A DNA stretch of 39,625 nt from a virus, in IMG/VR virus record IMGVR_UViG_3300031629_000017, positions 1-39,625 of that record; one strand, 5' to 3'. How positions within the stretch are numbered: position 1 is the stretch's first letter; every line of letters begins with the position of its first letter. The position numbers and the translations under genes were made by a program. The notes beneath the pieces were generated by a model that saw only the letters and a list, made by a program, of their open reading frames with translations, ran no database searches and was not told the origin of the DNA. This document shows positions 17,401-39,625 of this stretch, in pieces.

Positions 17401-18209
17401 CGTTGTTGTTCGCGGGAGTACAAGGCGTACCGTTGTTCGGTGCAGTATCTATGTTATTTGATATATTCTTTAATGACGATGAAGAAGATGATGCACGTAC
17501 TTGGACACGTAAGTACGTTGGTGAAGGTTGGTACAAAGGCCCACTTACTGAATCTCTTGGTACAGACGTGGCATCACGTATAGGACTTTCAAACCTACTA
17601 TTACAGAGTAACAGGTTTAGTAAAGACCCTACAATCGAAGAGACTATTGGGTTTTACTTTGGTGGCCCTGCATTAAGCACCGCTAGAAGATTTGAACGTG
17701 CGGTTAAAGACCTCGGTGAAGGAGAGATTGAACGTGGGATTGAAAATTTAGCCCCTGCGGGATTAACTAACGCATGGCGCTCTACTGTAGGTAGGTACCA
17801 AAGAGAAGGAGGCATACGGACACGTAGGTATGACCCTATTTATGATGATATGACAGGTGGAGATTTTGCGGCACAGGCTTTAGGATTTTCTCCTGCGGAA
17901 TACACACGTAGGCAAGAACAGTCTATGAGAAACAAAAAGGTTGAAGATGCCGTCATTGGTCGTAGGTCTAGGCTAACTAAAAAGTATTATGTAGCGGCTC
18001 GTATGAGTGACTACGAGGCAATGGCAGAACTTAGATTAAAAATGGTAGAGTTTAACAGGGAACATCCTTCTGCCGGAATATCCCCAGATAGTATAATGAA
18101 ATCTTTAGACTCTCATATGGAAACATCCGCTAAGATGCATAACGGGGTGACTATCAATCCGTTAATGAAGTACGCTATTGATAAAAGTAACAAAGAGTAC
18201 AAACGATAA
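11472..18209 (+). CDS. Giant virion/ejection protein with zincin-type HExxH domain (2245 aa)
   Basis: This 2245-residue protein starts at the ATG at 11472, 32 bases after the previous stop, behind an AGAGACG leader. Residues about 130-170 are Ala/Gly-rich and hydrophobic. EGVQEVSAEIAQNL near 241 is followed by a second hydrophobic patch (GYGAAAGAILDLFLG). Residues about 300-950 are charged and probably disordered or coiled. LIHESAHAA at about 1117-1125 gives an HExxH (H1119, E1120, H1123). The acidic EEFVSEAFSNPEF segment (E1167) is a plausible third zinc ligand. NASSALVNLSQIP lies near 1690, and LAGVHLSALLFAG... at 1970-2001 looks membrane-active. HExxH domains with this following motif occur in phage 'polyvalent' proteins and large ejection proteins. 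A metallopeptidase acting during DNA entry is inferred. It is the last late gene before the terminator. Confidence 0.85.
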   Translation: MATLARIEAAFNRAYDTGDMETAKELGQLIRDIKAGSYKPPEETPKEPLEFQPKNTNNENAGFFENIRTGFGSGAVGMGETFALGAAAFYEEEEELKARDKIRRTADAFRPEGGDQDSLTYGISSALGSVAGIAVPAAIAAYSAPAAAATAVGTGVAGLLGVGASRGEASERARFAGATEEERNTAINSILVNAAGVAEALPMGRVFKSIDVPVLNKFIDKLSPEAAEGISGRLKNAAITGGLEGVQEVSAEIAQNLTEQEYNALAETFGGAREAFGYGAAAGAILDLFLGKRKRGSKPTGADPQETVVAEEEARVLRGTELGEEQIDMFSTELDAAESANRGRVGPTEEEIVRETERRVGERNEVGAPEQLDMVSQVETEEYNELEAAETAKADRSAFLDAQRGALEGELRQESELESVTGRVEGRAVSESNARRESILQEVIEANPTTNYNTVRNKFSAALSTEGITDNKANEREILTIQKAINFQKAEEGSRLTKGVDQNTDTSAMEAQIPERRSAVETGDVDPVAREQATAKALAELKGIPVGEATQVIKPKAPEGEAAALLAANNIPVNLENTQGAEVGGVSTDAKALVKKLTGKKLPTVKGAPKQGQRRSAVPTGEVLTPTDTSSVKTASTSKDVDIVEFGVKYPNAIPEGTEFTNPADADAIDALLTKRIPRDAKGIEQTARDYFKRFDRPAEAYASIAYEIANETPAYVTPKNTPISEIAKFKGTGGVNTKATLEWVEQNLSADAKTEIDKRIKENQNLNRASKKDRASVAKTEKLNEQVEKGAPRKVATKEEAEAQSEENQARIDASQEEDAIKRGEEKTTTDSEKVTTKVNKAQKTKEDADKNFLNLTNNPKTDFTSTDKNGMLSITAKRNRVRAKEYAAAGIDPATSNEILNKVFSSRKADAEAVKKATANVASRQESKTKPKPVTTRKKTLEKIIPKFLGKEGLTREEIIGAYNIAVLDASKPKMVAAAEKWFATATPKQVREAATLYSVQRMSAKSSNLELDPKVVAELNSDVPTSVTAFIKKNDIKGALEELHKSSRNKRVKQIIRALANNIGSTKVELVTSKELSTRGFFAKTDTGVLVSTYDADSDTILINIDVPFTTHALIHESAHAATDKILSNKSHPVTKQLTKLYNDVKGELDTAYGSMSLEEFVSEAFSNPEFQYKLASINTKGEQINSLEKFFRAVSNFVRNLIGMDTIPLGSALESVDAAIISVLYPSPDTRDGSALIAMSSPDDVKQILKDMKDVQRYVSSGSKKEFIKDAIAFLSNNEMSIIAKDMFTRLANSQMLGDLARDSGFAQLGLDLHAAFESQRYALQESQKRVKNILKGYDAWVKDAGIDAKEALDRIVYSDEYGATIYQVDPTLTESEARKRYKDKFDTSGNKDLFDIWKKQRKDWDSLEKNGGQDQFNTQRKAYRDMYEALVKVINREIDGAGGNLSAGKKAGLKAQINERLIKQRELDVYFPLVRRGRFKLSYKTTITNNDGSTRVEPVFLMFENRTARDNAEKEIASDLRTVGKPQPYEGDTDRGKFQQVASGSFVSEVLDVLSASGKDADSQMQEQVMRLFIESLPETSFAKSLQKRSTTIGYDKDVRGAMQNKGFDLSAQTAKMESSSKIRDIEKEIDLVYKAGAPKGVDSLVFSRIYKELGKRAKFAKTGAENKNVEPYLQRFNQIAFIYTIGFNASSALVNLSQIPMIVGPFLTGKFGFDETMSAMTQAAKFVGGAKLSIDEYYDVKEVSTTKNGVTTSDNVYSLKESVEKNIRESIPKKADADAKIAQFKRMAPMIKAANERGHIYHSEMKDMVGVDDLGRGGNKNIFIKGLDTTSTWSAIMFSTAERFNRQTTMTMSYNLVLDKMDNNKRYYSALKGKFIDVPSDSESRMYMAADEAIYLTQELNGGTVLETSSGFSQQGLGRVALMYKSHGMQMYYTMAKSAKLLLDNKFAKDAEGKQLRSIAIQQLAGVHLSALLFAGVQGVPLFGAVSMLFDIFFNDDEEDDARTWTRKYVGEGWYKGPLTESLGTDVASRIGLSNLLLQSNRFSKDPTIEETIGFYFGGPALSTARRFERAVKDLGEGEIERGIENLAPAGLTNAWRSTVGRYQREGGIRTRRYDPIYDDMTGGDFAAQALGFSPAEYTRRQEQSMRNKKVEDAVIGRRSRLTKKYYVAARMSDYEAMAELRLKMVEFNREHPSAGISPDSIMKSLDSHMETSAKMHNGVTINPLMKYAIDKSNKEYKR

Positions 18210-22168: not shown

Positions 22169-22849
22169 TTAGTTTGCGTTTAACTCGAAACCTTCAACTG
22201 CTGAGAATGGAGACACAGGTTCACTTGTTATAGGGACAGTCATAGTAATCGCCCGTAATGTATTCGGGTGGTCGATCATATTGCATACTGTCTCATATGT
22301 GTCTGCATCTAAACGGTCTACTGGTTTAAAGCAAAGTTTTGGTACAACGCTATCCTTATCAAAGTATATCTTGGTAGTGATAGCAACTATTGGGGTATCG
22401 TGTTTGGATAAGAGTCGGGCATAGTTTTGCATACCCATGTTGCCCCCTTTATCGCCCCCGAATATTGATGTGGCAGGTATCTGTAACTGATACACCTCAT
22501 CGGGCTTATCCCCAAATACAACTGCTAGTCGTTGTGAGAACCGACAAGCCCTACCCCCATACTGACCTGAACCCCTAATGTTCTGGGGGCAGTCCATACA
22601 ACGCATAGCTTGCCGTTGATCTTGGGGTACTTCATTATCTGGTAACTGTGTGTCAGGTGACCAACACGTAGGTACCGCAACCCTATTGGGGTCATACGCA
22701 TCGCCATAGTAAGCGCGAGATACTTTAGCGGCATTAACTACCACTACTTCTATAGAATCTGAATCATCAGTGCTAACTTCTGTACCGTCAACTACGTAGT
22801 GAAACTTGCTATTACGTATGCTGATTCGACGTTGAGAGTTATCACTCAT
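22169..22849 (-). CDS. Four-Cys protein sharing the SSB SPFSAVEG motif (226 aa)
   Basis: This 226-residue protein of unrecognised family overlaps the HTH gene by 8 bases (ATGAGTGA). The N-terminal half is beta-rich. Cysteines C62, C84, C87 and C102 (the second pair in MRCMDCP) could hold one zinc ion. After QRLAVVF comes a beta-rich half with YQLQIPATSIFGG. The end is SPFSAVEGFELNAN, almost the same as SPFSAVEGGFEL in the SSB encoded 17 bases downstream. A second ssDNA- or nucleic-acid-binding protein, perhaps an SSB paralogue without the long acidic tail, is the best inference. A transcription-linked zinc protein is an alternative. Confidence 0.75.
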   Translation of the reverse strand: MSDNSQRRISIRNSKFHYVVDGTEVSTDDSDSIEVVVVNAAKVSRAYYGDAYDPNRVAVPTCWSPDTQLPDNEVPQDQRQAMRCMDCPQNIRGSGQYGGRACRFSQRLAVVFGDKPDEVYQLQIPATSIFGGDKGGNMGMQNYARLLSKHDTPIVAITTKIYFDKDSVVPKLCFKPVDRLDADTYETVCNMIDHPNTLRAITMTVPITSEPVSPFSAVEGFELNAN

Positions 22850-23090
22850 CGTTATCCAAATCCAATTCTAATTGCTCAAACTCCCCTAACTCTTCATCAA
22901 ATGAGGCGGCTTCATTGGGTGACCCAACTAGGGCATTCTCAACATCGGCCACTCTAAAACGATAGGTATTACCCACCTTTATATAAGTGTTCGGGGGTAT
23001 CTTGCCTTGCCTTACCCAAGCACGGATAGTAGATAGAGACACAGTAAAGTGTTTAGCTACCTGTTCAATTGGTACATATGGTACGGACAT
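22842..23090 (-). CDS. MerR/excisionase-type helix-turn-helix protein (82 aa)
   Basis: Two ATGs lie in tandem. The second (23090) is preferred because AAGGAG is then 6 bases away and the start forms a TGATG overlap with the previous stop. The first (23093) would add one Met. Residues about 5-55 form a winged HTH: YVPIEQVAKHFTVSLSTIRAWVRQGKIPP, then TYIKVGNTYRFRVADVENAL, the usual excisionase/HTH_17 pattern. The C-terminal 30 residues are acidic (FDEELGEFEQLELDLDNDE) and could contact another protein. With no integrase in the window, a regulatory or replication-accessory role is more likely than excision. It is the clearest DNA-binding regulator here and a candidate binder of the palindromes near 36-38 kb. 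Confidence 0.85.
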   Translation of the reverse strand: MSVPYVPIEQVAKHFTVSLSTIRAWVRQGKIPPNTYIKVGNTYRFRVADVENALVGSPNEAASFDEELGEFEQLELDLDNDE

Positions 23091-23491
23091 CATTTTCTCC
23101 TTACTGATACTACGTATTCTGAATCTACATTAAGACCTTTAGGTACAAGGTCGGGGTTCTCTTCTAAAAACTGTTTCATGTTCGTTTGGTTGAGTCGCTT
23201 ATCAAGTAACTCAGGTGCTCCATGCTCTAATATAAACTCATGCATGTTGCTCCAATCGCTAGTCCAATACCTAGTCTTGGCAGACCTATAAAACAATCCT
23301 TCTGAAGTCTTTACACTATCAACACCCTGCTCTTTACAGTAATCAAGTAACGCTCTCTTGACCTTATCTATCTGCTCAGACAGTTTGCTATCTTCTTCTT
23401 TAAATGCCGCTGAAAGTTCTGAACGTCTATCCTTAATCTTCAAGTAGATCTTGGTTAACTGTTCAGCAGTGGACTTACCTTCCTCACTCAT
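23090..23491 (-). CDS. Coiled-coil phage protein, unknown function (133 aa)
   Basis: This 133-residue protein has AGGAG 8 bases before the ATG. Residues about 5-55 are a charged coiled coil (TKIYLKIKDRRSELSAAFKEEDSKLSEQIDKVKRALLDYCKEQ). A compact region follows with KTSEGLFYRSAKTRYWTSDW and an end EYVVSVRRK. A coiled coil plus a small beta region before a conserved aromatic patch is reminiscent of the phage Gp157 / Mu Gam-like host-nuclease inhibitor layout. The similarity is only general and I would not name it so. It overlaps the HTH gene and follows the SNF2 helicase by 49 bases, so it belongs to the recombination/replication part of the operon. Confidence 0.75.
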   Translation of the reverse strand: MSEEGKSTAEQLTKIYLKIKDRRSELSAAFKEEDSKLSEQIDKVKRALLDYCKEQGVDSVKTSEGLFYRSAKTRYWTSDWSNMHEFILEHGAPELLDKRLNQTNMKQFLEENPDLVPKGLNVDSEYVVSVRRK

Positions 23492-26448: not shown

Positions 26449-28283
26449 TAATCTGCTGCCTCTCCGTAAGATTCACCACTATCTGACTCACATGTAATAG
26501 GTAAGCCCTCTGCCCACAATGGGGTGGTATTCATGCAACCCTCAATAAAAGCAGTCGCTTCTTTTAACTCATCTTTTGGTACACAGCATACTACAGAATC
26601 GTGTACGGTAAGTGCTACCTTATACTTTTTAGCAATCGCTAACATCTGCTCCCCAATTATACACCTAGCTATCGCTTGGCATACATTCTCCGTAACCTTA
26701 CCACCGTATATCCTAGTGCGTCCACGTCTAGTCTTGTAGCTAAACTCTGGCCCACGCTCACCTTGCTCATACCCTAAGTCGTCATAACGCATGACTAGCC
26801 CTGACGGTAATAGTATTCCCATACCCGACTGCGTTTCGACAGAGCGAACGATTCCATTCGGGCCTAGGCTTATAGTAGTACCACGAGACATCTCAACTAA
26901 CATGTTCTGACAGTCACGCCATAAGGTATTAATATTCCAGTTAGCATCTCGGTATATACTGACTACCCTACGTGCTTCTTCGGCTTCCATAAAGGTACCG
27001 AATGATAGTAGTTGTTCTGCAAACCTAATCGCACCCATGCCATACCCACAACCTAGGATAGTAGTCTTACCTACAAACCGTTGCTGTTTGGTAACCTTGT
27101 CTTCGGGTATGTTGTATATTATAGCGGCCATCTTTATGTAAACATCTTCACCGTTGGCAAATGCTGATACCAGATCCTCCTGCCCTGCTAACCACGCTAA
27201 CACTCGTGCCTCAATCTGTGCGGAGTCACAGTCAATCATCACGTAGCCTTCGGGGGCACGCATACTGTTCTTTAACTTCTTACCATTCACACCACGGCTA
27301 GGTAAGTTCTGAATGTTAATCTTATCATCACCTCCCCACCTACCAGTGTGCGCGGCATAGTATCTGATGGGTACGGGCATAAGCCCACGTTTGGCTATAC
27401 CTATAAACCTCTCAGTACGTGATTCTTCAAGCGTACTCTTAGTACCTAGGCGTGACATCACTAACGCTTGTACACGCACATCTTTATGGTCGGCTAACGC
27501 CTTGAACCCTTCATCGTTCTTAGCGAATGCATAGGTCTGCTTACCTGTAGTAAGGCTTAACTTCATAGGGGGATTTACACCCAAGTCCCTTAGTATGTCT
27601 GCGAACTTGGGGTTACTCATAAGGTCTTTCTTTGTCACGCCTGATGCTGTTACAAGGTCTTCCTTTATCTGCTTGGTATCTTCTAGGTGGTGCTCTAGTA
27701 ATCCTAAGTCCAACTCTATGATAGGCTCTATGAACATACGCAATGTGCAGTCTATTAAACGTAGTTCTCCCTTCGGAAACCCCTTACCCATACGGTTAAA
27801 CAACTTATAGGTTAACTCCACATCGTTAACGCAGTAGTCACCGTACTTATCCAGTGCTTCGTCTGTAAAATCTAATCGCTTCTTACCTACGGCATCAAGT
27901 ACTTCAGTACCTTTCTCTCCAAGGTTATACCGTTGTGTTAACGCGTGTAGGCTTCCTCCAACCTCAACACCGTGTAATGCACGAGCAATACAAAGAGTAT
28001 CGGTATAGATACGAGGATGAACATCGAAATGCCAATTAAGAATAGCGCCATCAAACATAGTGTTGTGAGCAAGTAATATACTATTTGCCCAATCAAAAGT
28101 TTGTAAGTACTCCTTGAGTTCTTCATGTGTACCACTAGCCCACTCCGTACTTCCATTGTTAACCTTTACGCTTACACCGATCACCTCAAAGCGAGGGTCA
28201 CGGATGTAAGCTTCTGTTGTAATCTTACGTAAAGAGAAATCCTTATCGTAGTAGGTTTCAAAGTCTACGGTTATTAAATCCAT
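26448..28283 (-). CDS. polA: Family-A DNA polymerase with 3'-5' exonuclease, Leu762 type (611 aa)
   Basis: This is the replicative polymerase of the phage. The N-terminal proofreading exonuclease has VDFET (D7, E9), AHNTMFDGAIL (72-82) and YCVNDVELTY (150-159). The polymerase domain has motif A IDCDSAQIEARVLAW (D351), O-helix QRFVGKTTILGCGYG (R402, K406, L410, Y414) and motif C LTVHDSVV (H561, D562). All catalytic residues are present. There is no 5'-3' nuclease domain, as usual for phage PolA. The residue equivalent to E. coli Phe762 is leucine, the type widespread in marine virioplankton. The ATG follows the previous TAA directly, with AGGA as ribosome site. It probably works with the SSB and primase-helicase downstream. 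Confidence 0.95.
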   Translation of the reverse strand: MDLITVDFETYYDKDFSLRKITTEAYIRDPRFEVIGVSVKVNNGSTEWASGTHEELKEYLQTFDWANSILLAHNTMFDGAILNWHFDVHPRIYTDTLCIARALHGVEVGGSLHALTQRYNLGEKGTEVLDAVGKKRLDFTDEALDKYGDYCVNDVELTYKLFNRMGKGFPKGELRLIDCTLRMFIEPIIELDLGLLEHHLEDTKQIKEDLVTASGVTKKDLMSNPKFADILRDLGVNPPMKLSLTTGKQTYAFAKNDEGFKALADHKDVRVQALVMSRLGTKSTLEESRTERFIGIAKRGLMPVPIRYYAAHTGRWGGDDKINIQNLPSRGVNGKKLKNSMRAPEGYVMIDCDSAQIEARVLAWLAGQEDLVSAFANGEDVYIKMAAIIYNIPEDKVTKQQRFVGKTTILGCGYGMGAIRFAEQLLSFGTFMEAEEARRVVSIYRDANWNINTLWRDCQNMLVEMSRGTTISLGPNGIVRSVETQSGMGILLPSGLVMRYDDLGYEQGERGPEFSYKTRRGRTRIYGGKVTENVCQAIARCIIGEQMLAIAKKYKVALTVHDSVVCCVPKDELKEATAFIEGCMNTTPLWAEGLPITCESDSGESYGEAAD

Positions 28284-28487
28284 TTACTTATCCTGCGAAT
28301 GCAGGAAAGCTATCTTTATGTCTTCATCCTTACGCAGTGCGTGATACTCAAGCTGTACCTTGGCAGAGTTAATCATCTTACCTGCTAGGTTAGCAAGTTC
28401 TGAAGCGGCCTTCACTTCTATCCCCCCTGTACGTAGGTCATCAAATACTTCCGATAAGTTTGCTCGTAGTTCGTTTACAGTCTTCAT
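28284..28487 (-). CDS. Small helical phage protein (67 aa)
   Basis: This 67-residue protein overlaps the repeat-protein stop by four bases (ATGA) and abuts the PolA ATG. It is predicted all-helical: VNELRANLSEVFDDLRTGGIEVKAASELANLAGKMINSAKVQLEYHALRK. Similar small proteins with a 'KAAEIANLAGKMINSAK'-type stretch are frequent in phage replication regions, from memory, but no function is known to me. The tight coupling to PolA makes a polymerase-linked role reasonable, though unproven. Confidence 0.78.
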   Translation of the reverse strand: MKTVNELRANLSEVFDDLRTGGIEVKAASELANLAGKMINSAKVQLEYHALRKDEDIKIAFLHSQDK

Positions 28488-29794
28488 ATCATTTTCCCTA
28501 TTTGTCGTCGTAGTTTAAGTTGCTCTCGTTTTGCTTCTATAAGTTCTTTGGGTATATCCCTTGCTCTGAGTACACTTGATTTGCGGCGCAGACTCTGAGC
28601 AACATACCCATCTGATAGGTTGTCTCTCTGAGTCTCTTTACGGTGTTTACTTATAGCATCGCAGTTTTCCACATAGTAGGCTCTTCGGAGCATCCTGTGT
28701 TTTTCTGGGTCTTTCTCCCTGTTACGTTTCTGGCGTTGCGCTATTGCCTCCTTATTATTAGCATAGTAAGCCGCAATCCCCATTAACTCTGTTTCCCTGT
28801 GCCTCGCGTAACTTTCTCTACGCTCTTGTTTAACCTTTTCTGGGTCAGCTAACCGCATAGCCGCCCTATCGACGATGCGTTTTTTGTTACGCTTCTCCCG
28901 TTGTTCAGGATGGTCAGCCAAGTACTTCTTAGCGTATTGGCTTTTATGCTCCCGTTGTTCAGGTGTACGGTTTGTATAGACATCCTTACGTTTTTGTGCG
29001 GCTTTCTCAACCTGTTCAGGGGTACGGTTTGCGATCCACTGCCTCGCAGTTCGGTTTTTAGCCTCCTTCTGTTCGGGGGTACGAGGGGGACGGTTTACTT
29101 GATACTCCCTACTCCGTTGCCTTTCAGCCTCAACCTGTTCAGGGGTGCGGTTTGCTTTCCGCTCTCTTTCTCGTTGATTTATAACCTCCCTATGTTCAGG
29201 GGTACTACGGTATGCTTTCCTCTCCCTACGCTTTTGTAAGTCCTTCTCCTTCTGTTCAGGTGTAAGAGGGGGACGGTTTGCACGGTACTCTTTCATCCAT
29301 TGCCTTCGAGCCTCAACCTGTTCAGGGGTACGGTTTGCTCTCCCCTCCCTACGCTTTTGTAAGTCCTTCTCCTTCTGTTCAGGTGTACGGTTTACTTTAT
29401 ACTCCCTACTCCGTTGCCTTTCAGCCTTAACCTGTTCAGGTGTACGGTTTGCTTTCCGCTCTCTCACTTGTCGATTTATAACCTCCTTCTGTTTAGGTGT
29501 CTTGGGTCTACGGGGATGCTTTGCATGGTACTCTTTAGCATACTGCCTTTCAGCCTCAACCTGTTCAGGGGGACGGCTCTCTCTACGCTTTTTGCCATAC
29601 TGTTTTGCAGCCTCTCGTTGTTCAGGTGTAAGAGGGGAACGGTTCTCTCTACGTTGTCGTAGCGCCTTCTCACGCTGTTCAGGTGTAAGGTTTGCTCTCA
29701 GCTCTCTTACTCGTCGCCTATCAGCCTCCTTCTTTTCAGGGGTAAGATTAGCGCGATACTTTTTCAGGTCTTCCCTCCTATCTCTGTATGGCAT
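28484..29794 (-). CDS. Arg/Lys/Glu-rich 19-residue repeat protein (436 aa)
   Basis: Residues 16-293 are 14 tandem units of about 19 residues with consensus NRTPEQ-x-E-x6-REY-x-A. Some units are 20-23 residues because of a PPLTPEQ-type insert. Each unit looks like a helix capped by TPEQ, giving a very long, highly charged and basic rod. Residues about 310-436 are non-repeated and basic, with YYANNKEAIAQRQKR, LSDGYVAQSLRRK and DIPKELIEAKREQLKLRRQI. I recall the latter as a C-terminus of phage DNA-binding or HNH-associated proteins. Nucleic-acid binding or a structural rod is inferred from charge. The start has GAGGGG upstream. Its place between DUF3310 and PolA is odd for such a repeat protein. 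Confidence 0.83.
   Translation of the reverse strand: MPYRDRREDLKKYRANLTPEKKEADRRRVRELRANLTPEQREKALRQRRENRSPLTPEQREAAKQYGKKRRESRPPEQVEAERQYAKEYHAKHPRRPKTPKQKEVINRQVRERKANRTPEQVKAERQRSREYKVNRTPEQKEKDLQKRREGRANRTPEQVEARRQWMKEYRANRPPLTPEQKEKDLQKRRERKAYRSTPEHREVINQRERERKANRTPEQVEAERQRSREYQVNRPPRTPEQKEAKNRTARQWIANRTPEQVEKAAQKRKDVYTNRTPEQREHKSQYAKKYLADHPEQREKRNKKRIVDRAAMRLADPEKVKQERRESYARHRETELMGIAAYYANNKEAIAQRQKRNREKDPEKHRMLRRAYYVENCDAISKHRKETQRDNLSDGYVAQSLRRKSSVLRARDIPKELIEAKREQLKLRRQIGKMI
28877..29749 (-). repeat. About 57-bp degenerate tandem repeats coding the 19-residue units
   Basis: The word CTGTTCAGG (+ strand view) recurs at roughly 57-66 bp steps. Units have diverged by point changes and small in-frame inserts, yet some distant units are nearly the same (for example the KEKDLQKRRE units at residues about 141-150 and 181-190). 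That suggests unit shuffling or gene conversion rather than simple decay. Confidence 0.9.
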
Positions 29795-31780: not shown

Positions 31781-32686
31781 TTACCCCTTGTACTCGTTGA
31801 ATGTTTCGTTGAACCCTGCTCTGTCGTTTATCCACGCGTTGAACTTAGTGCGAAACACCTTGGGGTCACTTGTTACACTGACGTTAACCCCCCCATTGAT
31901 AGTATTACCTGTGTTGTCGTGCCAGTATCTGTTATTGTAATAACTCGCCACAGTACATAGAAACGCGTGTAGCATAGTTGTGCGTTGCTCGTGTTGACTG
32001 TCCATCAGCATGGCTCGGAACATTCCCGAAGTAGTATTGCTAGCTACTCTTTGCGCCGCCATGTTTGTATGCCAGTCCATAGTACCCTCTATGAGCGGAG
32101 CCATATTCCACACCCACTCAAGGTAAGAAACTATAGCTTCCTTGTAAGGCTCCTTCTCTTCTTTGTTTACACGCTTACGTACTACAGGTAAAGGGTGCGG
32201 ATTACTTACTAACCGCCACGCACACTGAGGTGTATGTGCATCTTTGAACACTACGGTTTTGTTATTGGCCTTGGGTAGGAAGTGTCGCTCCTCCCTGTAC
32301 CTAACGTACTGCTTACCACTGTCTACCACAAACGACATCCCTCTAGGCATACAGCGGTGTAGGAATGAATACCTACTGGTGTGTGCGAAGTCACCCTCCC
32401 CATTACGAAACTCTACTACGCTATTTTTGTTAGCGCCTAGCGTCCACGTAACTGCGGCCACCGCTTCAACTTGTTCGGGTGTCTGATACCAGTTGTACGT
32501 CTCGTACTTCTTATCCATTAACGTGTCACACAGTTTGTAACAGGTGGGCGATACCTTTACTATCCGCTCCCACTTACGTCTGCGATCACCTAGAGGTACT
32601 ATGGTAGTACCCCTGATAGGTTTGGTGGTGTTGTATAGACGCTCGGCGTCTGCGAAACTACTGATATTAAAGTTATACATTGCCAT
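31781..32686 (-). CDS. Hypothetical protein coupled to the VWA gene (301 aa)
   Basis: The ATG at 32686 shares its A with the VWA gene stop (TAATG), with AGGAAC upstream, so it is probably made in fixed ratio with the VWA protein. The 301 residues contain many Trp, Tyr and Arg. Examples are KWERIVKVSPTCYKLCD, YRFLHRC-type segments and WVWNMAPLIEGTMDWHTN. There is no known motif, P-loop or membrane helix. It may be a client or adaptor of the MoxR-VWA pair. That is inference from coupling. Confidence 0.77.
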   Translation of the reverse strand: MAMYNFNISSFADAERLYNTTKPIRGTTIVPLGDRRRKWERIVKVSPTCYKLCDTLMDKKYETYNWYQTPEQVEAVAAVTWTLGANKNSVVEFRNGEGDFAHTSRYSFLHRCMPRGMSFVVDSGKQYVRYREERHFLPKANNKTVVFKDAHTPQCAWRLVSNPHPLPVVRKRVNKEEKEPYKEAIVSYLEWVWNMAPLIEGTMDWHTNMAAQRVASNTTSGMFRAMLMDSQHEQRTTMLHAFLCTVASYYNNRYWHDNTGNTINGGVNVSVTSDPKVFRTKFNAWINDRAGFNETFNEYKG

Positions 32687-33966
32687 TATATGTTCCTCGA
32701 TTTAATGTGTACTGCCTTACCAACTTCAGGTAAAGCCGTTTCATGGTCTAATATTGCCCATAGAACAGGGCATGTCCAATCGCCCCAACCTCCAAACAAG
32801 TAGCCATCAGTCAGCACGATGGTCGCTTGCGGTTTGATACCTTCCTCTGCCATATACTGCGTGACACACCTAACATCAGTGCCGCCACCATCCTTGGGTT
32901 TAGTAGATGTAGTCAGTTGCTCCAACTCATGCATGTCGTATGACTCGTCACCTACCACACTGCAACCCCAGTACAACAGGCGCACCTTGTCAGGTTTTAC
33001 TGTGTCACATACACCCTTGACCTCGGATAGGAACGCGGTCAACTCTAACTGACCGATAGAACCTGACGTATCAATGGCGATAACTAACTCGCCAACTTGC
33101 TCACTGATACCGCTCGGCATGACGATACCCTGACTCATCAACCTACGATTAGGGCGTGCGTATGTAGAGTAGTCACTCCCTGCGCATGTAGTCTGTACAA
33201 ACTCACGCAATACCTCACGCCAATCGACTTGGGGTTGTAGTAACGCATCTAAGTCGCGGTTACCTGTACCACCCATCTTCCCTGCGGCTAATGCTCCCTG
33301 ACGTATTGCCTCGTCAATATCACGCGCCAACTCACGCTTCTCCTCAGTTGATAGTGATTGCGCCCCCTCCCAATCGTGCTCATCGAAACCAGTTCCCTGA
33401 CCTACTGCGGTGTTTTGTGAACCTGTGGTGTTAGAACGTACCTGTTCACCATCACCCTCTGACTCGTTATCCTGTGAGTCATTATCACCATCCTCCCCGG
33501 TCGGCTGTTCTTCTTGTTCCTTGCGTAGTATGTTGAACACCTGTGCACTGTCCATACCACGGAACCGCGCATCGACTAGCCCACCCTCTGGTAGTTTGGC
33601 GAACCCATCGCCCTTGTTATCATCGACTATCTTGATATTGATAACGTAGTCACACGCGCAGTTAGCTAGGAACGGATCAATATCATACATCCACCGCCAT
33701 GTATCTAGGTGACGGTGTAGCTTGTGCCCCTCATCCTCGTGCAGTACTAACCCACGCAATTCGGCATCGGTTTGTTTCTCAACAAACGCACGCCCATACT
33801 TAACATCACGCCCATTGGTACATGCTGTAGGTATATCATCGTGTATGGTTTTCTCACCGATCATTAACACCCCTGCTAATGCTGTGTATCTGGGGTGCCC
33901 CATTATTGCTACGACTGCTTTGGACAGTCGCTCCTCTGCTGTAAGCTGTTTACCTATAGTTAACAT
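32686..33966 (-). CDS. VWA-domain protein with altered metallopeptidase-like N-terminus (426 aa)
   Basis: The C-terminal VWA domain has a complete MIDAS: IAIDTSGS (D299, S301, S303), GGTDV (T363) and VLTDGYL (D387). The N-terminal part is of the kind annotated as a metallopeptidase-like domain. Its core LVLHEDEGHKLHRH (73-86) has one residue more than a normal HExxH between E77 and H81, so zinc binding in the usual way is doubtful. A long acidic linker (about 150-200) joins the halves. VWA proteins of this kind work with MoxR AAA+ ATPases, whose gene lies 10 bases upstream. The pair resembles ViaA-RavA or CbbO-CbbQ chaperone systems. The phage target is unknown. Confidence 0.88.
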   Translation of the reverse strand: MLTIGKQLTAEERLSKAVVAIMGHPRYTALAGVLMIGEKTIHDDIPTACTNGRDVKYGRAFVEKQTDAELRGLVLHEDEGHKLHRHLDTWRWMYDIDPFLANCACDYVINIKIVDDNKGDGFAKLPEGGLVDARFRGMDSAQVFNILRKEQEEQPTGEDGDNDSQDNESEGDGEQVRSNTTGSQNTAVGQGTGFDEHDWEGAQSLSTEEKRELARDIDEAIRQGALAAGKMGGTGNRDLDALLQPQVDWREVLREFVQTTCAGSDYSTYARPNRRLMSQGIVMPSGISEQVGELVIAIDTSGSIGQLELTAFLSEVKGVCDTVKPDKVRLLYWGCSVVGDESYDMHELEQLTTSTKPKDGGGTDVRCVTQYMAEEGIKPQATIVLTDGYLFGGWGDWTCPVLWAILDHETALPEVGKAVHIKSRNI

Positions 33967-33976
33967 TGTCTATCCC

Positions 33977-35059
33977 CTATGCTTTGTCGGCGGCGAACAT
34001 GTAGTTGTTCTTCATTGCCCACGATGTGAAGTTCTTACTCTGCATAACAACAGAGCGGTGTGCGTACGTGTTGGCGCGTATGCCATTAGCGAATAGACCT
34101 TGCGCTTCCTTGTCTAGTCTCTCCATGTAGGTCACCCAGTTATCTACCCAATCACGGTTCATTGCACCTAGTGCGCGGTACACTGTCATACATACTGCTG
34201 ACGTAGAGTCAGGTACTTTGGCACTAAGCGGATCGTCCTTGATAGATTGTAGTGACGGTAGTTGATCGGCTAACTTAACAAACGCCATCATGTCCATAGC
34301 GCCACGGTCACCGATAGTACCCATGAGTAAAGCTGTTAGGCTGTGATCGTCATACATATCACGTAGCTTGAGTATGTCACTCGCGGCTTCCAATGATCTT
34401 GGGGTAATGAAGTGGGCGCGTTGCTCCTTGGGGTGGAATATGTATGGGTTATCTCTTGGGTCTTTCACGTCCTCAAACCCTTGCAACACCTGTGGAAACT
34501 CACGTACAAAACCTAGCACACTGTGATCGACCTCGTTGTTGATACCCCATTCGATAAACTCCTCACTGGTAGACTTGCGTGCAGTGACTATGGTGATACG
34601 GTTGCGAGTATGTGGGGGTAACAAGTCACCTACACCCTCTGCGCTTAGGTTGGTGGTGGCAAACACAATGCTACCTTCTGGTAACTTCTTTGTACCTACC
34701 TTGTGCTCTAACATAGTAATGTTTAGGGCGTTCTTCACGGCTGTATTGGCCTTACCTAACTCATCAATGTTAATCAGTAGCTTCTTACCGTAGTGAATAC
34801 CGAACTCCTCGTTGGGTAGGTATGTTACGAACCCCTCGTCGGTATTGAGTGACGGTATGCTGATGTCACCTAGGTCTTTAGTCGTACAGTCAAACATGAC
34901 AGGTACGTGGTCGGGAAACTTCTCTGCTAACGTCTTTAACAGTGATGACTTACCATTACCCATGTGACCCTGTACGAGTATGGTGCGCTTGTGCCCAACC
35001 GTTGCGATAGCGTTGGCGATTTGGTCTAGTGATAGTGCGTACATTTGTTGTGTATTCAT
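33977..35059 (-). CDS. MoxR-type AAA+ ATPase (360 aa)
   Basis: This AAA+ ATPase has Walker A VQGHMGNGKSS (31-39), Walker B LLINIDELGKAN (D99, E100), sensor 1 FATTN (133-137) and an arginine-finger region PPHTRNRI. Its length is usual for MoxR proteins. MoxR ATPases remodel protein complexes together with VWA partners, and this one lies 10 bases before such a gene. The start is the ATG at 35059, five bases after the stop of a 52-residue gene. The conserved set DUF3150-like / small basic / MoxR / VWA suggests one module. Possible targets are the replisome, the host or the virion. No evidence in the sequence tells which. Confidence 0.9.
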   Translation of the reverse strand: MNTQQMYALSLDQIANAIATVGHKRTILVQGHMGNGKSSLLKTLAEKFPDHVPVMFDCTTKDLGDISIPSLNTDEGFVTYLPNEEFGIHYGKKLLINIDELGKANTAVKNALNITMLEHKVGTKKLPEGSIVFATTNLSAEGVGDLLPPHTRNRITIVTARKSTSEEFIEWGINNEVDHSVLGFVREFPQVLQGFEDVKDPRDNPYIFHPKEQRAHFITPRSLEAASDILKLRDMYDDHSLTALLMGTIGDRGAMDMMAFVKLADQLPSLQSIKDDPLSAKVPDSTSAVCMTVYRALGAMNRDWVDNWVTYMERLDKEAQGLFANGIRANTYAHRSVVMQSKNFTSWAMKNNYMFAADKA

Positions 35060-35064
35060 AGTTT

Positions 35065-35223
35065 TTACTTAGTCTCTTGGTTAAGTGTTTCAATTACGCA
35101 ACCGTTATTGGTTACGATACGGTAATACGACACACGGTGAGTACGCAACGTGCGTAACCTATTGTAGTGTTTTGTGCGCTTGAAGTTACGCACACGTAGC
35201 ACCGCTTGTCCTCTTATACTCAT
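35065..35223 (-). CDS. Small basic protein (52 aa) between DUF3150-like and MoxR genes
   Basis: This 52-codon frame was found by reading the gap. The ATG at 35223 overlaps the previous stop by one base (TGATG), and the TAA is five bases before the MoxR ATG. The product is very basic and beta-prone: MSIRGQAVLRVRNFKRTKHY, then NRLRTLRTHRVSYYRIVTNN and an end GCVIETLNQETK. The intact frame with exact junctions on both sides is strong support for a real gene. Nucleic-acid binding is likely from charge. No family was recognised. Confidence 0.75.
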   Translation of the reverse strand: MSIRGQAVLRVRNFKRTKHYNRLRTLRTHRVSYYRIVTNNGCVIETLNQETK

Positions 35224-36119
35224 CACATATCCAACGATGGTAGTGACTTGATCGCATCATCTACTATGCGTTTGGTTTCGACGCGGAGTGATTCGCTCTC
35301 ACGTAATCCATCGGGGGTGACACCGCGCAGTGCATCGTCTAGCTTGTTAGCCATACGTGTCATTTTTCCGTCACCTGTAACATTACACACGTTAAGCAGT
35401 TCTACCATGTCGATCACGTTATCGACTAGTGTGTCACGAAAGATCTTCTTCTTATCATTACCGCTGTAGTCCAGACGCTCAGACATATTGGACAAAGCCT
35501 TGTACGTGCGTTGCCACACATCGCCCATTGCTGATACCAGTTGCTTGTTGTAGTACTCACTGTAGTGGTCTGATAGTACTTGTTGTTGCTCATTGCCTAT
35601 ATCGACACGAAAGTCACCTGCATCTGGCAGGGGTATGTAAGATATAGTGAAGTCAAACTTACTGCGTATGGATTCCTCTGTCGGGTAGTCCTCACGTCTA
35701 AACAAGTCACCGAGTCGTGCCTGTGCGCGGCTTATCTCCCACGTATAGTTGGAACAAAACGTATCGCGCATACGATAGAACTCTGTCTGCAACCCAGTTA
35801 GTTGTGGGTGATACTTGAAGTACGCGGTCATAGGTAACAGTCGCAACCCTAGGTCAGACCACGGCATAGTCGATGCGTAGTTGATGTTGCGTGAGTTGGT
35901 GACGAACTTATGTATCGCAGTTAGTTCGTCACAGTTACCCAGTAACTTCTTATTGACTGACGCGGTGCCCTTGTCGGCTGAGTTTTGCGTAGTCACTGTA
36001 GCTGATGCCGACTTGTCTTTCTTACGGCCTGTCCAACAGCTAATCTTTAACTCTACTAGCATTGCGCTTGATCCAATGGATGGCGCGTTTACTTGAGGTG
36101 CTACGTTTACATTTTCCAT
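35223..36119 (-). CDS. DUF3150-like protein of the MoxR-VWA module (298 aa)
   Basis: The start is the ATG at 36119, with ACTCGGAG six bases upstream. The frame runs on to 36155, but that part lies in the palindromic leader. The 298-residue protein has LVELKISCWTGRKKDKSAS near the N-terminus, then a mostly helical body with LGNCDELTAIHKFVTNSRN and MPWSDLGLRLLPMTAYFKYH. This WTGRKKD...PWSDxGxRLLP layout is what I know from DUF3150 proteins found next to phage MoxR/VWA genes. The biochemical role is unknown. The 18-bp palindrome ends eight bases before this ribosome-site box. Confidence 0.82.
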   Translation of the reverse strand: MENVNVAPQVNAPSIGSSAMLVELKISCWTGRKKDKSASATVTTQNSADKGTASVNKKLLGNCDELTAIHKFVTNSRNINYASTMPWSDLGLRLLPMTAYFKYHPQLTGLQTEFYRMRDTFCSNYTWEISRAQARLGDLFRREDYPTEESIRSKFDFTISYIPLPDAGDFRVDIGNEQQQVLSDHYSEYYNKQLVSAMGDVWQRTYKALSNMSERLDYSGNDKKKIFRDTLVDNVIDMVELLNVCNVTGDGKMTRMANKLDDALRGVTPDGLRESESLRVETKRIVDDAIKSLPSLDM

Positions 36120-36135: not shown

Positions 36136-36153
36136 GTTATACATATGTATAAC
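36136..36153. promoter_or_regulatory. Perfect 18-bp palindrome, copy 1 (GTTATACATATGTATAAC)
   Basis: This exact inverted repeat lies 17 bases before the ATG of the DUF3150-like gene and directly before its ACTCGGAG box. It lies three bases past the stop codon of the 54-residue membrane gene. It could be a DNA operator or, in RNA, a hairpin next to the ribosome site. Confidence 0.85.
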
Positions 36154-36155
36154 AT

Positions 36156-36320
36156 TTAGATAAACATCTGATGTGCTATGAACCCCAGTGCAACAACGCA
36201 CGTGGCAATAGCGGTTAGTGTTACGCCTACGTCACGTAGTGCTAACGCATTAAGGTGTGCACGCCTCTCATACTCGTGCTTGATTCGGCATTGCTTACCG
36301 TAATCTCTCATGCTACTCAT
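36156..36320 (-). CDS. Small C-tail-anchored membrane protein (54 aa)
   Basis: This 54-codon frame was found by reading the gap. The ATG at 36320 overlaps the previous stop by four bases (ATGA). It stops at 36156, three bases before palindrome copy 1. The N-terminal 28 residues are basic and soluble (MSSMRDYGKQCRIKHEYERR). One membrane helix follows (VGVTLTAIATCVVALGFIAHQMF). The overlap and the sharp hydrophobic segment support a real gene. It may anchor a partner at the membrane or act like a small holin. Neither can be shown. Confidence 0.75.
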   Translation of the reverse strand: MSSMRDYGKQCRIKHEYERRAHLNALALRDVGVTLTAIATCVVALGFIAHQMFI

Positions 36321-36568
36321 AACTCACCCCCTTGCGTTGCGTGCCAGTACTTCTTAAGGTCGGCATCTATATCGCTCACCTCATTGTTTATAAAGTGATA
36401 GAACTTCTTGGGGCGCTGTTCAAATGACTTGCGCATTTCGACTTCTATATCTTGTACGAACATGGTGTGTTCATCACGCAAGTCGTCATACCCATAGGGG
36501 ACTGTCTCTTTCTCTGCGGCCATCTCTAGTGCGCAGAATGCAACGTGGTCTTTCCATTCGCTTGTCAT
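36317..36568 (-). CDS. Small acidic protein with a nuclease-like FEQ-PKKFYH motif (83 aa)
   Basis: ACTCGGAG lies eight bases before the ATG at 36568, and palindrome copy 2 just before that. The 83 residues are acidic and helical: MTSEWKDHVAFCALEMAAEK, then DDLRDEHTMFVQDIEVEM and KSFEQRPKKFYHFINNE (47-63), ending KKYWHATQGGEL. The KSFEQ-R-PKKFYH stretch is the same as the N-terminal KSFEQ-C-PKKFYH of the Cas4-like nuclease apart from Cys to Arg. No other similarity between the two proteins is seen. It is the first gene after the consensus leftward promoter at 36684-36711. Function unknown. Confidence 0.78.
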   Translation of the reverse strand: MTSEWKDHVAFCALEMAAEKETVPYGYDDLRDEHTMFVQDIEVEMRKSFEQRPKKFYHFINNEVSDIDADLKKYWHATQGGEL

Positions 36569-36590
36569 GTCTGTATCTCCGAGTTGGTTT

Positions 36591-36608
36591 GTTATACATA
36601 TGTATAAC
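36591..36608. promoter_or_regulatory. Perfect 18-bp palindrome, copy 2 (GTTATACATATGTATAAC)
   Basis: This copy is identical to copy 1. It lies 22 bases before the ATG of the 83-residue gene and immediately before its ACTCGGAG box. It is about 75 bases downstream of the -10 box of the consensus promoter, so it would be in the 5' untranslated RNA. The shared place before two different genes argues for function. Confidence 0.85.
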
Positions 36609-36683
36609 TTTTAGTGGCTAATCACGTGATAACAGTGAGATCGTGTGTTAACCGATAGGCGTGATTTCTCAAGCCATGTAACC

Positions 36684-36711
36684 ATTATACGCCTTTGCCG
36701 TCTTATGTCAA
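36684..36711 (-). promoter_or_regulatory. Consensus sigma-70 promoter reading leftward
   Basis: On the - strand TTGACA (36706-36711) is followed after 16 bases by TATAAT (36684-36689). Both hexamers match the bacterial consensus exactly. The start of transcription would be near 36676. The first genes reached are the 83-residue protein, the 54-residue membrane protein and the DUF3150-MoxR-VWA group. Its strength suggests early transcription by host RNA polymerase. Confidence 0.88.
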
Positions 36712-36881
36712 ATCATGGGTAGACGTGTTGTGCGGTGGCTAGGGGTGTATTGTACTCCTGTGTACTCCTGTGTACCTGTGTGTAGGTGGGTAAGTCATTG
36801 ATATGTATACAATGTTACTTTGTTACCTTTCTGAGAGAATTGGACAGTAATATATTTGGTGAAAGATATTCGCGAGAGAGG

Positions 36882-37117
36882 GGTAACATTAGACGAAATC
36901 CTACAGACCTGTCTCTTTTTCAAAAAAAGGTACAAAGGTAACATTATAAATATATTTAATAAATAGATAAGAAAGAGCACTTCTCGATAGGCACACTCTG
37001 TCATGCATGCTTACGCTCCAACGCCATATGTCACGATACAGCACGATCTGATAATGTTACCTTTTGGTCAAAAAAAAGGTAACATTAGGGTAACATTACA
37101 AGGAAAAAGGTAACATT
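36882..37117. repeat. Iteron-like GGTAACATT repeats
   Basis: Exact GGTAACATT occurs at 36882, 36937, 37078, 37089 and 37109, and inverted (AATGTTACC) at 37053. Near copies AATGTTACT and TGTTACCTT lie at 36811 and 36821. Several copies have a preceding A-run, giving AAAAAGGTAACATT. Close copies are about 11 and 20 bases apart, near one and two helical turns. The AT-rich stretch 36941-36975 follows the copy at 36937. Confidence 0.9.
37052..37087. repeat. Inverted repeat with 14-bp arms between iterons
   Basis: TAATGTTACCTTTT (37052-37065) and AAAAGGTAACATTA (37074-37087) are exact reverse complements around GGTCAAAA. The arms contain the inverted and the direct iteron. It can form a hairpin or cruciform and may nucleate protein binding or origin opening. 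No U-tract follows on either strand, so a terminator is less likely. Confidence 0.88.
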
Positions 37118-37123
37118 GTAAAT

Positions 37124-37141
37124 GTTATACACATGTATAAC
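37124..37141. promoter_or_regulatory. 18-bp palindrome, variant copy 3 (one mismatch)
   Basis: GTTATACACATGTATAAC differs from the perfect form by one central base. It is next to the last iteron, far from any start codon. A copy outside a leader supports a DNA-level role such as binding of a regulator. Confidence 0.75.
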
Positions 37142-37161
37142 TATTCATGCCCAAACGTGCT

Positions 37162-37240
37162 GTGAGGCGCAACGCGGAGGAGTAACTGGTATCAACGCGT
37201 TATGACGTGAGGCGCAACGCGAAGCAGGAACTGGTATCAA
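37162..37240. repeat. 34-bp near-perfect direct repeat
   Basis: Copies lie at 37162-37195 and 37207-37240, 45 bases apart. Both begin GTGAGGCGCAACGCG and end AACTGGTATCAA, and differ at three middle bases. It lies between the iterons and the terminator, in non-coding DNA, and is far richer in GC than its surroundings. Confidence 0.92.
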
Positions 37241-37250
37241 AATCGAGGCC

Positions 37251-37278
37251 AAAAAAAAGCCTCTCAATTAAGAGAGGC
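37251..37278 (-). terminator. Canonical intrinsic terminator after the 67-residue gene
   Basis: On the - strand GCCTCTC and GAGAGGC (37272-37278 and 37259-37265) form a 7-bp stem with a six-base loop, followed by eight T. The hairpin overlaps the last codons and the stop of the 67-residue gene. It should end the short transcript from the 38.1 kb side, so the genes beyond 36568 need the 36.7 kb promoter or readthrough. Confidence 0.93.
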
Positions 37279-37467
37279 CATGATTGATTTGAAGATGTTA
37301 GGTTGATCACCTAACCGCCGTTCTTGTATAGTTCTGTTACGCACCAAGTCACGTCTTAACGTGTCTATGTTAAAATCCAGATCCATACCTATATCACCTG
37401 AGCGTTGGATTGTATCCAGTGCATCTATTGCCTTGTTTATATTAGCTATCATTGTTGATGGTTTCAT
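37264..37467 (-). CDS. Small helical protein, unknown function (67 aa)
   Basis: ACTCGGAG stands six bases before the ATG at 37467. The 67 residues are helical and basic at the end: MIANINKAIDALDTIQRSGDIGMDLDFNIDTLRRDLVRNRTIQERR, then LGDQPNIFKSIMASLN. No family was recognised. The gene ends inside the stem of a canonical terminator and follows the 202-residue gene by 41 bases, so these two make a short separate transcript. Early position next to the control region suggests host take-over or regulation. That is inference. Confidence 0.75.
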   Translation of the reverse strand: MKPSTMIANINKAIDALDTIQRSGDIGMDLDFNIDTLRRDLVRNRTIQERRLGDQPNIFKSIMASLN

Positions 37468-37508
37468 ATGCTACTCCGAGTGAGCGGGCCATCCTTGGCC
37501 CTGATTGG

Positions 37509-38117
37509 TTAGTGTGAAACTTGCTGAGCGAATATCTCAATCATGCCACGTAGTAACTCCCTGCTATCATTGGAGTCCTTTACTGGAGCATTGCCTTCGA
37601 TGTAGCTCTGCAAGTCACGTATCTTCTTGCAGATCTTAGCATTGACCACGTTGGAATCATCGATCACCTTGTCACCAGTCTTCGGTTGCTGTGGTGCCTT
37701 GGTCTTCGCCTTGGACTGACTGGCCGCATATACCTTATCGGTACGTAATCGTATGGCATCACGTTGAGCGCTCATCTTGCGACCGATCCGTTGGATATCC
37801 TTGGTCTTGATAACCTTGTCAGCCTCGCTCAGTGACTTAACAGGTAGAGCGTGCATCTTGACAGCCTTAGCACCAAGTCCCTTGAGTATCGCACCTTTAA
37901 GGGCAGTGTATAACTCAGGGGTAGATGTTGATTCCCCAGTCTTACCATCAGGGCTAACAAAGTCAGTCCACTTCAGATCATCTGCTATCATCTGATCGGT
38001 GCACGCTTGAGCCGCTATACGACCGCGAGTCTCAATAGCTACTGACTTAGTTAATAATGATTCAGCCTCTGAAGTGAATCGCGTGGGTACTGCTTTAGCT
38101 TCGTTAATGTTTTTCAT
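37509..38117 (-). CDS. Unknown early protein (202 aa)
   Basis: This 202-residue protein has ACGGAG before its ATG and is the first gene leftward from the divergent region. It is Lys/Ala-rich and mainly helical: a KNINEAKAVPTRFTSEAESLLT start, a TELYTALKGAIL-type region near 70, a basic middle (DIQRIGRKMSAQRDAIRLRTDK), a Lys/Pro linker (SKAKTKAPQQPKTGDK) and a C-terminal helical part (KICKKIRDLQSYIEG). No motif or family was recognised. It could bind DNA near the control region. Palindrome copy 4 lies 93 bases before its start. Confidence 0.78.
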   Translation of the reverse strand: MKNINEAKAVPTRFTSEAESLLTKSVAIETRGRIAAQACTDQMIADDLKWTDFVSPDGKTGESTSTPELYTALKGAILKGLGAKAVKMHALPVKSLSEADKVIKTKDIQRIGRKMSAQRDAIRLRTDKVYAASQSKAKTKAPQQPKTGDKVIDDSNVVNAKICKKIRDLQSYIEGNAPVKDSNDSRELLRGMIEIFAQQVSH

Positions 38118-38464
38118 GGTGTACTACTCCGTTGATGTCAACGATCGAATGCCGTTGATGGTTCCCATGTTAACACGTTTAGGTATGTTTACAATAGATA
38201 GCCTACAAAGTTATACATATGTATAAGAAAAGGCACGTTTAGCCAGACCTCGAGGGGTACTGGGGGGGCACACACCCTTTCAACAGGACGGAGTCCCGCA
38301 CCCCTGTATATTACTAATTTACACGAATTATTCGTATTTTTTTGAGTTCGGTACCCCCACCCCCCTTCTTGAGGCCGTTCCCCCCGCCTTGTTTTAGAAA
38401 GACTAGTAAAAAAAATTTTATTATGGTACAAATGCACCTCCGGTGAATAACCTGCGACTATAAT
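38118..38464. other. Divergent intergenic region; possible packaging site
   Basis: About 350 bases hold no credible gene; an 82-codon - strand frame here crosses homopolymer runs and has no ribosome site. It holds palindrome copy 4, a G-run (38261-38268 area), C-runs near 38353-38366 and 38380-38386, and the short inverted pair ACGAAT-T-ATTCGT (38322-38334 area) followed by T7. GGGGTAC near 38254 and GTACCCC near 38351 are inverted to each other. The region lies just before terS, where cos or pac sites often are. That role is inference. No clear sigma-70 promoter was seen on either strand. Confidence 0.5.
38210..38227. promoter_or_regulatory. 18-bp palindrome, variant copy 4 (last base differs)
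   Basis: GTTATACATATGTATAAG keeps 17 of the 18 bases. It lies between the divergent leftward 202-residue gene (93 bases away) and terS (237 bases away), so a bound regulator could affect both early and late transcription. Confidence 0.78.
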
Positions 38465-39049: not shown

Positions 39050-39625
39050 AGTAGCTACGGACTTTACGCAGGGCGAAATCCAGCATATGTTGGACAATAT
39101 AGACAGTTTTAGCCCCGACGAAGTGGTAGAGATAGAAAGACTGGTAGATGAGCTAGATATTAGGCGCAAAAACAAGCTAGCGTACGATGATCTGATAGAA
39201 TTTTGTAAAGCCATGATGCCTGACTTCATTGTAGGTAAGCATCACCGCATTCTAGCCGACATGTTAATGGGAATTGAGCGGGGGGATAAGGATCGGGTCT
39301 GCGTAAACATCCCACCTAGGCATGGTAAGTCCCAGTTAGTGTCTATTTTCTACCCCGCGTGGTATTTAGGGCGTAACCCAGACAAAAAAGTGATGATGGT
39401 GTCGCACACAACCGATCTTGCGGTAGATTTTGGTCGTAAAGTGCGTAATATTATCGCTAGTGAGGCTTATAGGAGTATATTTCCTACGGTAAAGCTGTCC
39501 AGTGACTCTAAATCAGCAGGTCGATGGAGTACAAACGTGGGCGGAGAGTATTACGCCTGTGGTGTTGGCTCCGCACTAGCAGGTCGTGGTGCAGACTTAC
39601 TCCTTATTGATGATCCACACTCTGA
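39042..39625 (+). CDS. terL: Terminase large subunit, N-terminal part (cut by window end)
   Basis: The frame is open from a GTG at 39042 to the window end (about 194 residues). An ATG at 39087 would be the next choice. The ATPase domain of the packaging motor shows CVNIPPRHGKSQLV with Walker A PPRHGKSQ (91-98), then KKVMMVSHTTDLAVDFGRKVRNII and GSALAGRGADLLLIDDPHS with Walker B LLLIDD (186-191). The nuclease domain is outside the window. Together with TerS it begins the rightward late transcript. The Walker motifs and spacing are normal. Confidence 0.95.
   Translation, partial: MSRVATDFTQGEIQHMLDNIDSFSPDEVVEIERLVDELDIRRKNKLAYDDLIEFCKAMMPDFIVGKHHRILADMLMGIERGDKDRVCVNIPPRHGKSQLVSIFYPAWYLGRNPDKKVMMVSHTTDLAVDFGRKVRNIIASEAYRSIFPTVKLSSDSKSAGRWSTNVGGEYYACGVGSALAGRGADLLLIDDPHS

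Follow-up and report, generated by a model that had tools for sequence, protein, structure and literature searches.

A repeated palindrome in a marine phage clade probably marks operators that change together with one domain of their regulator

IMG/VR record IMGVR_UViG_3300031629_000017 is a virus contig of 39,625 bases, analyzed here over its whole length and referred to as the window. Its early region carries four perfect or near-perfect copies of an 18-bp palindrome, GTTATACATATGTATAAC, close to a gene for a 202-amino-acid (aa) protein. The palindromes are very probably operators of this protein, judging from the way in which the two vary together among related phages. The best overall explanation, to which we assign a probability of about 0.7, is that the protein is an early regulator that binds these operators and roadblocks its early operon. 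Close marine relatives have most likely exchanged the site sequence at almost every copy and, along with it, the half of the protein that reads DNA.

Palindromes in the window

Two copies of the palindrome are exact (36136-36153 and 36591-36608) and two have a single mismatch (37124-37141, GTTATACACATGTATAAC; 38210-38227, GTTATACATATGTATAAG). All four are confined to positions 36136-38227, a spread of 2.1 kb, and there is no fifth copy at up to three mismatches in the whole record, as the initial annotation of this DNA had judged by eye. Dinucleotide-preserving shuffles give a mean of 0.03 copies by chance and four copies in none of 100 shuffles, and a control pattern, the palindrome read backwards, has zero matches in the record. 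Comparison of coordinates and start codons agrees with the placement that the annotation gave to the exact copies: both stand directly 5' of the ACTCGGAG box of a gene, 16 and 22 bases from the ATG of the genes starting at 36119 and 36568. The single-mismatch copies also lie where it had put them, one adjoining the GGTAACATT repeats (37124) and the other within a divergent intergenic region (38210). In the order of the early strand, the putative operators are as follows.

Site 1: 38210..38227, no strand; one mismatch, at the outermost base; in the divergent intergenic region, dyad center at about -58.5 from the predicted start of promoter P1.
Site 2: 37124..37141, no strand; one central mismatch; beside iteron-like repeats, between a predicted terminator and promoter P2.
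Site 3: 36591..36608, no strand; perfect; begins at about +70 from the predicted P2 start, 22 bases 5' of the next ATG.
Site 4: 36136..36153, no strand; perfect, 20 bp counting the flanking base pair; 16 bases 5' of the ATG of a DUF3150-family gene.

Palindrome families in related phages

Relatives were gathered with the MoxR-type ATPase (33977-35059) and the DUF3150 protein (35223-36119) of the window, which yielded dozens of IMG/VR contigs from an uncultured marine phage clade; they are named below by short handles. The long relatives are 49-62 kb. The window itself is a fragment, with a terminase-like gene on the plus strand cut at 39625. By terminase, the nearest named phages (41-48% identity) are the Pelagibacter phages HTVC027P and HTVC023P, 023Pt_psg01, DSL-LC04 and the Planktothrix phage Pag-Yong1, none of which shows, over the 28-29 kb read, a perfect palindrome repeated in this way.

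Most relatives lack GTTATACATATGTATAAC, and many have their own repeated palindrome at equivalent places, in up to 11 copies and in about ten sequence families. The families include TGTATACATATGTATACA, TGTCTACATATGTAGACA, ATTAGGTAATTACCTAAT (and GTTAGGTAATTACCTAAC), GTTATAACACGTGTTATAAC, GTTCTAACATGTTAGAAC, GTTAGGGAATTCCCTAAC and GTGGGACNNGTCCCAC, and further TCGGGCANNTGCCCGA (11 copies in G015), GTCAGANNNNTCTGAC and GTTATAAC-N2-GTTATAAC. Sites are palindromic and 16-20 bp long in all of them, and they extend up to ~13 kb in G015 and G024. The phage-specific regulon that the initial annotation had proposed is supported. The same annotation had held that loss of the palindrome from close relatives with intact genes would speak against regulation. 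Taken literally, such loss is what is seen, because close relatives are without this palindrome; however, a different perfect palindrome stands exactly in its place, which strengthens the regulatory reading.

Orthologous sites often have flanks of 92-97% identity around palindromes that are 56-70% identical. For example, in the leader of the MoxR-type gene, G007 (TGTATACATATGTATACA) and G005 (GTTATAACACGTGTTATAAC) are 96% identical in the flanks and 60% in the palindromes, and an alignment of this leader holds four palindrome families within one conserved context. The palindrome is replaced with intact flanks at other orthologous sites too. By the same method, no repeated palindrome set was found in G017, L050 and some other related contigs. 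The exact 18-mer occurs in 11 stretches among all viral contigs, and L008, L009 and L013 share the site context; the other eight stretches have unrelated flanks and probably reflect chance or another use of the sequence. Within single genomes, leader modules around different sites can be nearly identical (G007, 27622-27700 and 27869-27950; G004, 10417-10740, e.g., PAL-aatcaatcggagcaatacagttatg). This likeness suggests that the modules were duplicated or homogenized by gene conversion, which might allow the sites to change in concert.

Covariation of the palindromes with one protein domain

Which protein reads the palindromes? The candidate is encoded after site 1 on the early strand.

Regulator gene: 37509..38117, minus strand; 202 aa, proposed operator-binding protein; residues 1-139 would form the specificity domain (all-helical model) and residues ~140-202 an exchangeable C-terminal region.

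The contrast between genomes that share a palindrome and genomes that do not points to this gene. G007 and G009 share TGTATAC, and G005 and G010 share GTTATAAC. The regulator of G007 is 82% identical to that of G009 (same operator) and 50-53% identical to those of G005 and G010 (different operator), which makes it the clear outlier of the 30 shared genes; the next difference is 8.7 points, and the neighboring genes are above 90%. In the reverse contrast the regulator ranks second of 27, after one virion gene that differs only in G007. It is the sole gene at or near the top of both contrasts.

Within the protein, the N-terminal domain follows the operator type and the C-terminus does not, and natural chimeras provide both combinations. 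With different operators, G007 and G005 are 90% identical in the C-terminus and 30% in the N-terminus, and the window and L131 are 88% and 49% identical, respectively. With the same operator, the window and L072 are 39% identical in the C-terminus and 76% in the N-terminus, and L131 and G007 are 22% and 74% identical. In a label permutation, the N-terminal gap between same-operator and different-operator pairs was 32.3 points, against a maximum of 17.7 in 5000 shuffles, although the permutation p-values overstate the case because related genomes are not independent. Residues 40, 77 and 118 separate, with no exceptions, proteins that have TGT-outer operators from those that have GTT/ATT-outer operators. 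Residue 77, which lies inside a predicted helix (67-81), is R in 9/9 proteins with TGT-outer operators and I, V or M in 14/14 with GTT/ATT-outer operators, a correlation among related sequences for a residue chosen post hoc.

The regulator has no detected relative outside the clade. An AlphaFold2 model of residues 1-139, built from 26 sequences, is all-helical (predicted local distance difference test score, 87; predicted template modeling score, 0.71). This N-domain model has no significant match in the PDB, and the full-length model has none in the PDB or BFVD, both by Foldseek. A Pfam search of the regulator gave no family. The regulator of one relative matches phrog_16278, “HTH DNA binding protein” (HTH, helix-turn-helix), with an E value of 2e-4; otherwise, PHROGs and PDB sequences offered no convincing named homologue. 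Searches with tblastn found no homologue in 50,697 phage records, many mycobacteriophages included (E up to 0.1), or in plasmid records, and a pattern-based scan found none in GTDB genomes; the family is without conserved stretches suited to alignment-based searching.

Promoters, geometry and a proposed mechanism

On the early strand, the order of elements is site 1, P1, the regulator gene, a small open reading frame (ORF), a terminator, site 2, iteron-like repeats, P2, site 3 and an operon with more sites. The elements around the sites are listed here.

P1: 38167..38194, minus strand; predicted regulator promoter, TTGTAA-N16-TAACAT, consensus match 8/12, box kept in closer relatives.
Small ORF: 37264..37467, minus strand; 67 aa, second gene of the regulator transcription unit.
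Terminator: 37258..37279, minus strand; predicted, intrinsic, at the end of the regulator unit.
Iteron-like repeats: 36811..37117, no strand; GGTAACATT/AATGTTAC, a candidate origin or control region; several relatives also have these repeats after site 2.
P2: 36684..36711, minus strand; predicted early-operon promoter with a perfect sigma-70 consensus, TTGACA-N16-TATAAT.
First early-operon gene: 36317..36568, minus strand; 83-aa ORF with site 3 in front.
DUF3150-family gene: 35223..36119, minus strand; 298 aa (PF11348, E 4e-6), proposed to be controlled by site 4.
Leader of the MoxR-type ATPase gene: 35060..35085, minus strand; holds a palindrome in relatives, the window copy being lost by a small deletion.

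P2 matches the consensus at 12/12 positions in 13 of the 15 relatives examined (one with a 17-base spacer), and the best form of P1 in relatives is TTGTAA-N16-TATTAT with TG in front. P2 was found in 15 of 16 genomes, and in all of these site 3 begins at +53 to +76 relative to the predicted P2 start. In most types, site 1 is centered between -58.5 and -61.5 relative to P1; in L017, L018 and L037 its center is at about -69 to -70, roughly one helical turn further away. The remaining sites are 4-30 bases 5' of start codons, mostly 15-25, and in G015, G024 and G021 sites also precede replication genes (helicase, primase/helicase-like). This geometry suggests control of transcription. The spacing and phasing of site 1 relative to P1 resemble those of a class I activator, which, with few independent cases, is only suggestive.

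How might the regulator act? A symmetric oligomer, presumably a dimer, would contact both half-sites through its helical N-terminal domain. When it occupies sites 3 and 4, it would stop elongating RNA polymerase and turn the early operon down, and in relatives the further sites just 5' of gene starts would block polymerase likewise. Such an elongation roadblock is somewhat better than an even bet. LacI roadblock experiments cover promoter-roadblock spacings of 30-102 bp (review PMC10310618), and the +53 to +76 of site 3 falls inside this range. At site 1, ~60 bases 5' of its own promoter, the protein would regulate itself; the class I activator position hints that this autoregulation may be positive, to which we give slightly less than even odds. 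Site 2 would let the protein act at the iteron region.

Several other features lie near these elements or further along the window. Two 34-nucleotide direct repeats, GTGAGGCGCAACGCGGAGGAGTAACTGGTATCAA, occupy 37162-37240 between the regulator unit and the iterons, and similar “gataccagt...gcgttgcgcctc” repeats occur at the equivalent place in several relatives. The MoxR-type ATPase, a large neighbor protein (426 aa) and the DUF3150 protein form a conserved cassette (32686-36119, minus strand), proposed to be operator-controlled in relatives. A gene at 28484-29794 (minus strand) encodes a highly repetitive charged protein of 436 aa with repeats around RANRTPEQVEAERQR and no PHROG or Pfam match. 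Two giant ORFs on the late strand (891-7925 and 11472-18209, plus strand; 2344 and 2245 aa) probably encode virion proteins, and their counterparts in relatives are among the most divergent genes.

Alternative explanations

The strongest competitor is that the palindromes work as RNA: each would form a hairpin in an mRNA leader, and the same protein would bind it, either to regulate translation or to equip RNA polymerase with an antiterminator in the manner of boxB. Most sites do fall within predicted leaders, with the start codon 4-30 bases further on; folding as RNA is feasible (-2.2 to -11.2 kcal/mol), and the arms of the palindromes covary between phages. However, site 1 is upstream of the predicted P1 and site 2 is between the predicted terminator and P2, so both are probably outside the transcripts on which they would act. 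In addition, the arms are nearly fixed within a genome, with no compensatory drift, and it is the center that varies (GT, GC, AC, GA and TC in L042), which fits duplex half-sites. Most families are also perfectly self-complementary through the center, which a loop would not need. The RNA hairpin is therefore an unlikely explanation. Of the two readings that the initial annotation had left side by side, the DNA operator is the better one, and we favor it over RNA by about 6 to 1.

A less likely alternative again is that the sites are activator sites, through which the protein turns genes on in a temporal program. The distance of site 1 from P1 is that of a class I activator. In contrast, sites 3 onward come after a perfect consensus promoter and immediately precede gene starts, a position with no evident promoter for an activator to work on.

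It is improbable that the sites serve maintenance or replication control, as partition or copy-number sites of a plasmid-like phage. Site 2 adjoins iteron-like repeats in the window and in relatives, but most sites stand before early-operon genes and not at one centromere-like locus. Moreover, no tyrosine or serine recombinase, ParA (PF13614) or ParB (PF02195) was found in 10 records, with positive controls, although the records may be fragments; there is thus no ParA/ParB pair for a ParB-parS system in the records searched. A role in lysogeny is not supported, since no integrase, ParA or ParB was found in these ten records; non-integrating persistence is possible. A prophage or integrating phage is likewise not supported: no recombinase was found in these records, and a pattern scan of genome contigs for relatives of the regulator or of the MoxR ATPase found no host genome. 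Phage RNA polymerase of the T7/N4 type (PF00940) had no match in the records, nor in any control genome.

The weakest candidate, very improbably the binder, is the MerR-type HTH protein at 22842-23093 that the initial annotation had named as one candidate: it contains an HTH_17 domain but cannot set the specificity, because it is 97% identical between G007 and G005, which have different palindromes, and its homologues, in 17/30 contigs, span the palindrome types and include contigs with quite different palindromes or without a recognizable one.

Some observations weigh against the 202-aa protein as the operator-binding roadblock. First, C-terminal similarity is also above most shuffles in the label permutation (p 0.0004). 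Second, in G007, G009 and L033 a GTTATAACACGTGTTATAAC site precedes one distal gene although the regulator and the remaining sites of these genomes belong to a different type; site 1 of L091 likewise departs from the type of its regulator, and L133 has a TGTCTAC-like N-domain yet a TGTATAC site 1. Operator-regulator matching is therefore not strict. The mismatched sites may be left over from a switch that was not completed, or they may mark the edges of recombination. The mismatched GTTATAACACGTGTTATAAC site, in front of the orthologue of the 31781-32686 gene, is found at 32212 in G007 (L094/L023 context), at 11105 in L028 and at 9862 in L033. Third, the promoters and the terminator are consensus predictions, and P1 is weak. 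Fourth, the centers in L041, L042 and L134 are variable or asymmetric, which weakens the argument for DNA from self-complementary centers. Fifth, a known fold gives DNA binding no support, because the regulator has no Pfam hit and no significant fold match.

Implications

What follows if the palindromes are operators of the 202-aa protein? First, the clade would be a natural experiment in which a regulator and its scattered sites have changed specificity in concert. How a regulator can do so while it has many dispersed sites to keep is an open problem for the evolution of phage immunity types. In this clade, close relatives whose neighboring proteins reach 98% identity are set apart by a complete operator set and a single protein domain. 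Natural domain chimeras exist and a few sites are still of the old type, so the switch should be reconstructable and directly testable. Second, the roughly ten pairs of regulator and operator, which are apparently distinct and belong to an undescribed protein family, could be used to derive a recognition code. Third, and tentatively, the regulators may be a new family of phage DNA-binding proteins with an undescribed helical fold, in which the N-domain is exchanged or diversified as a specificity cassette and most of the dispersed operators follow. This would produce mutually blind (“heteroimmune”) variants in phages with no sign of lysogeny, and the likely force would be competition during co-infection or evasion of a rival that makes use of the sites; as a whole, we consider this scenario possible but doubtful.

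Comparison with known systems

The repressor of phiC31, a temperate phage, binds highly conserved inverted-repeat operators in intergenic positions of the early region. To our knowledge, no comparable set of swapped specificities exists for phiC31. Lambda CI/Cro resembles the proposed system in its palindromic sites and in a regulator that controls its own promoter and an early promoter. However, lambda operators cluster inside promoters, whereas the sites described here are dispersed and mostly downstream of or outside promoters. As for LacI-type roadblocks, RNA polymerase can be halted by an operator that lies some tens of bases 3' of a strong promoter (PMC10310618), but here there are multiple dispersed sites and an unrelated protein.

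The closest parallel is with the Cluster A mycobacteriophages (L5, Bxb1, Trixie, TipsytheTRex), which have many sites, some in promoters and most not, and in which the motif and the repressor diverge together (PMC6550527). In both systems, multiple copies of one short site lie at promoters and in short intergenic gaps of the early region, and site sequence and regulator diverge together into separate specificities. Sites downstream of a promoter would suit an elongation block, here judging by their geometry. There are also clear differences. Cluster A stoperators are 13-bp asymmetric sites oriented with transcription (PMC6550527, PMC9283540) and are bound by a monomer with two DNA-binding domains (PMC9283540), whereas the sites in this clade are 16-20-bp palindromes. 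The regulator lacks a Pfam family and a match in the phage records searched, no lysogeny genes were found in the 10 records, and specificity can differ between genomes with 98% identical neighboring proteins. With palindromic sites and an unrelated protein, the system would work like stoperators without being a member of the Cluster A systems. This suggests that stoperator-like control occurs outside the actinobacteriophages, in marine phages without recognizable lysogeny genes.

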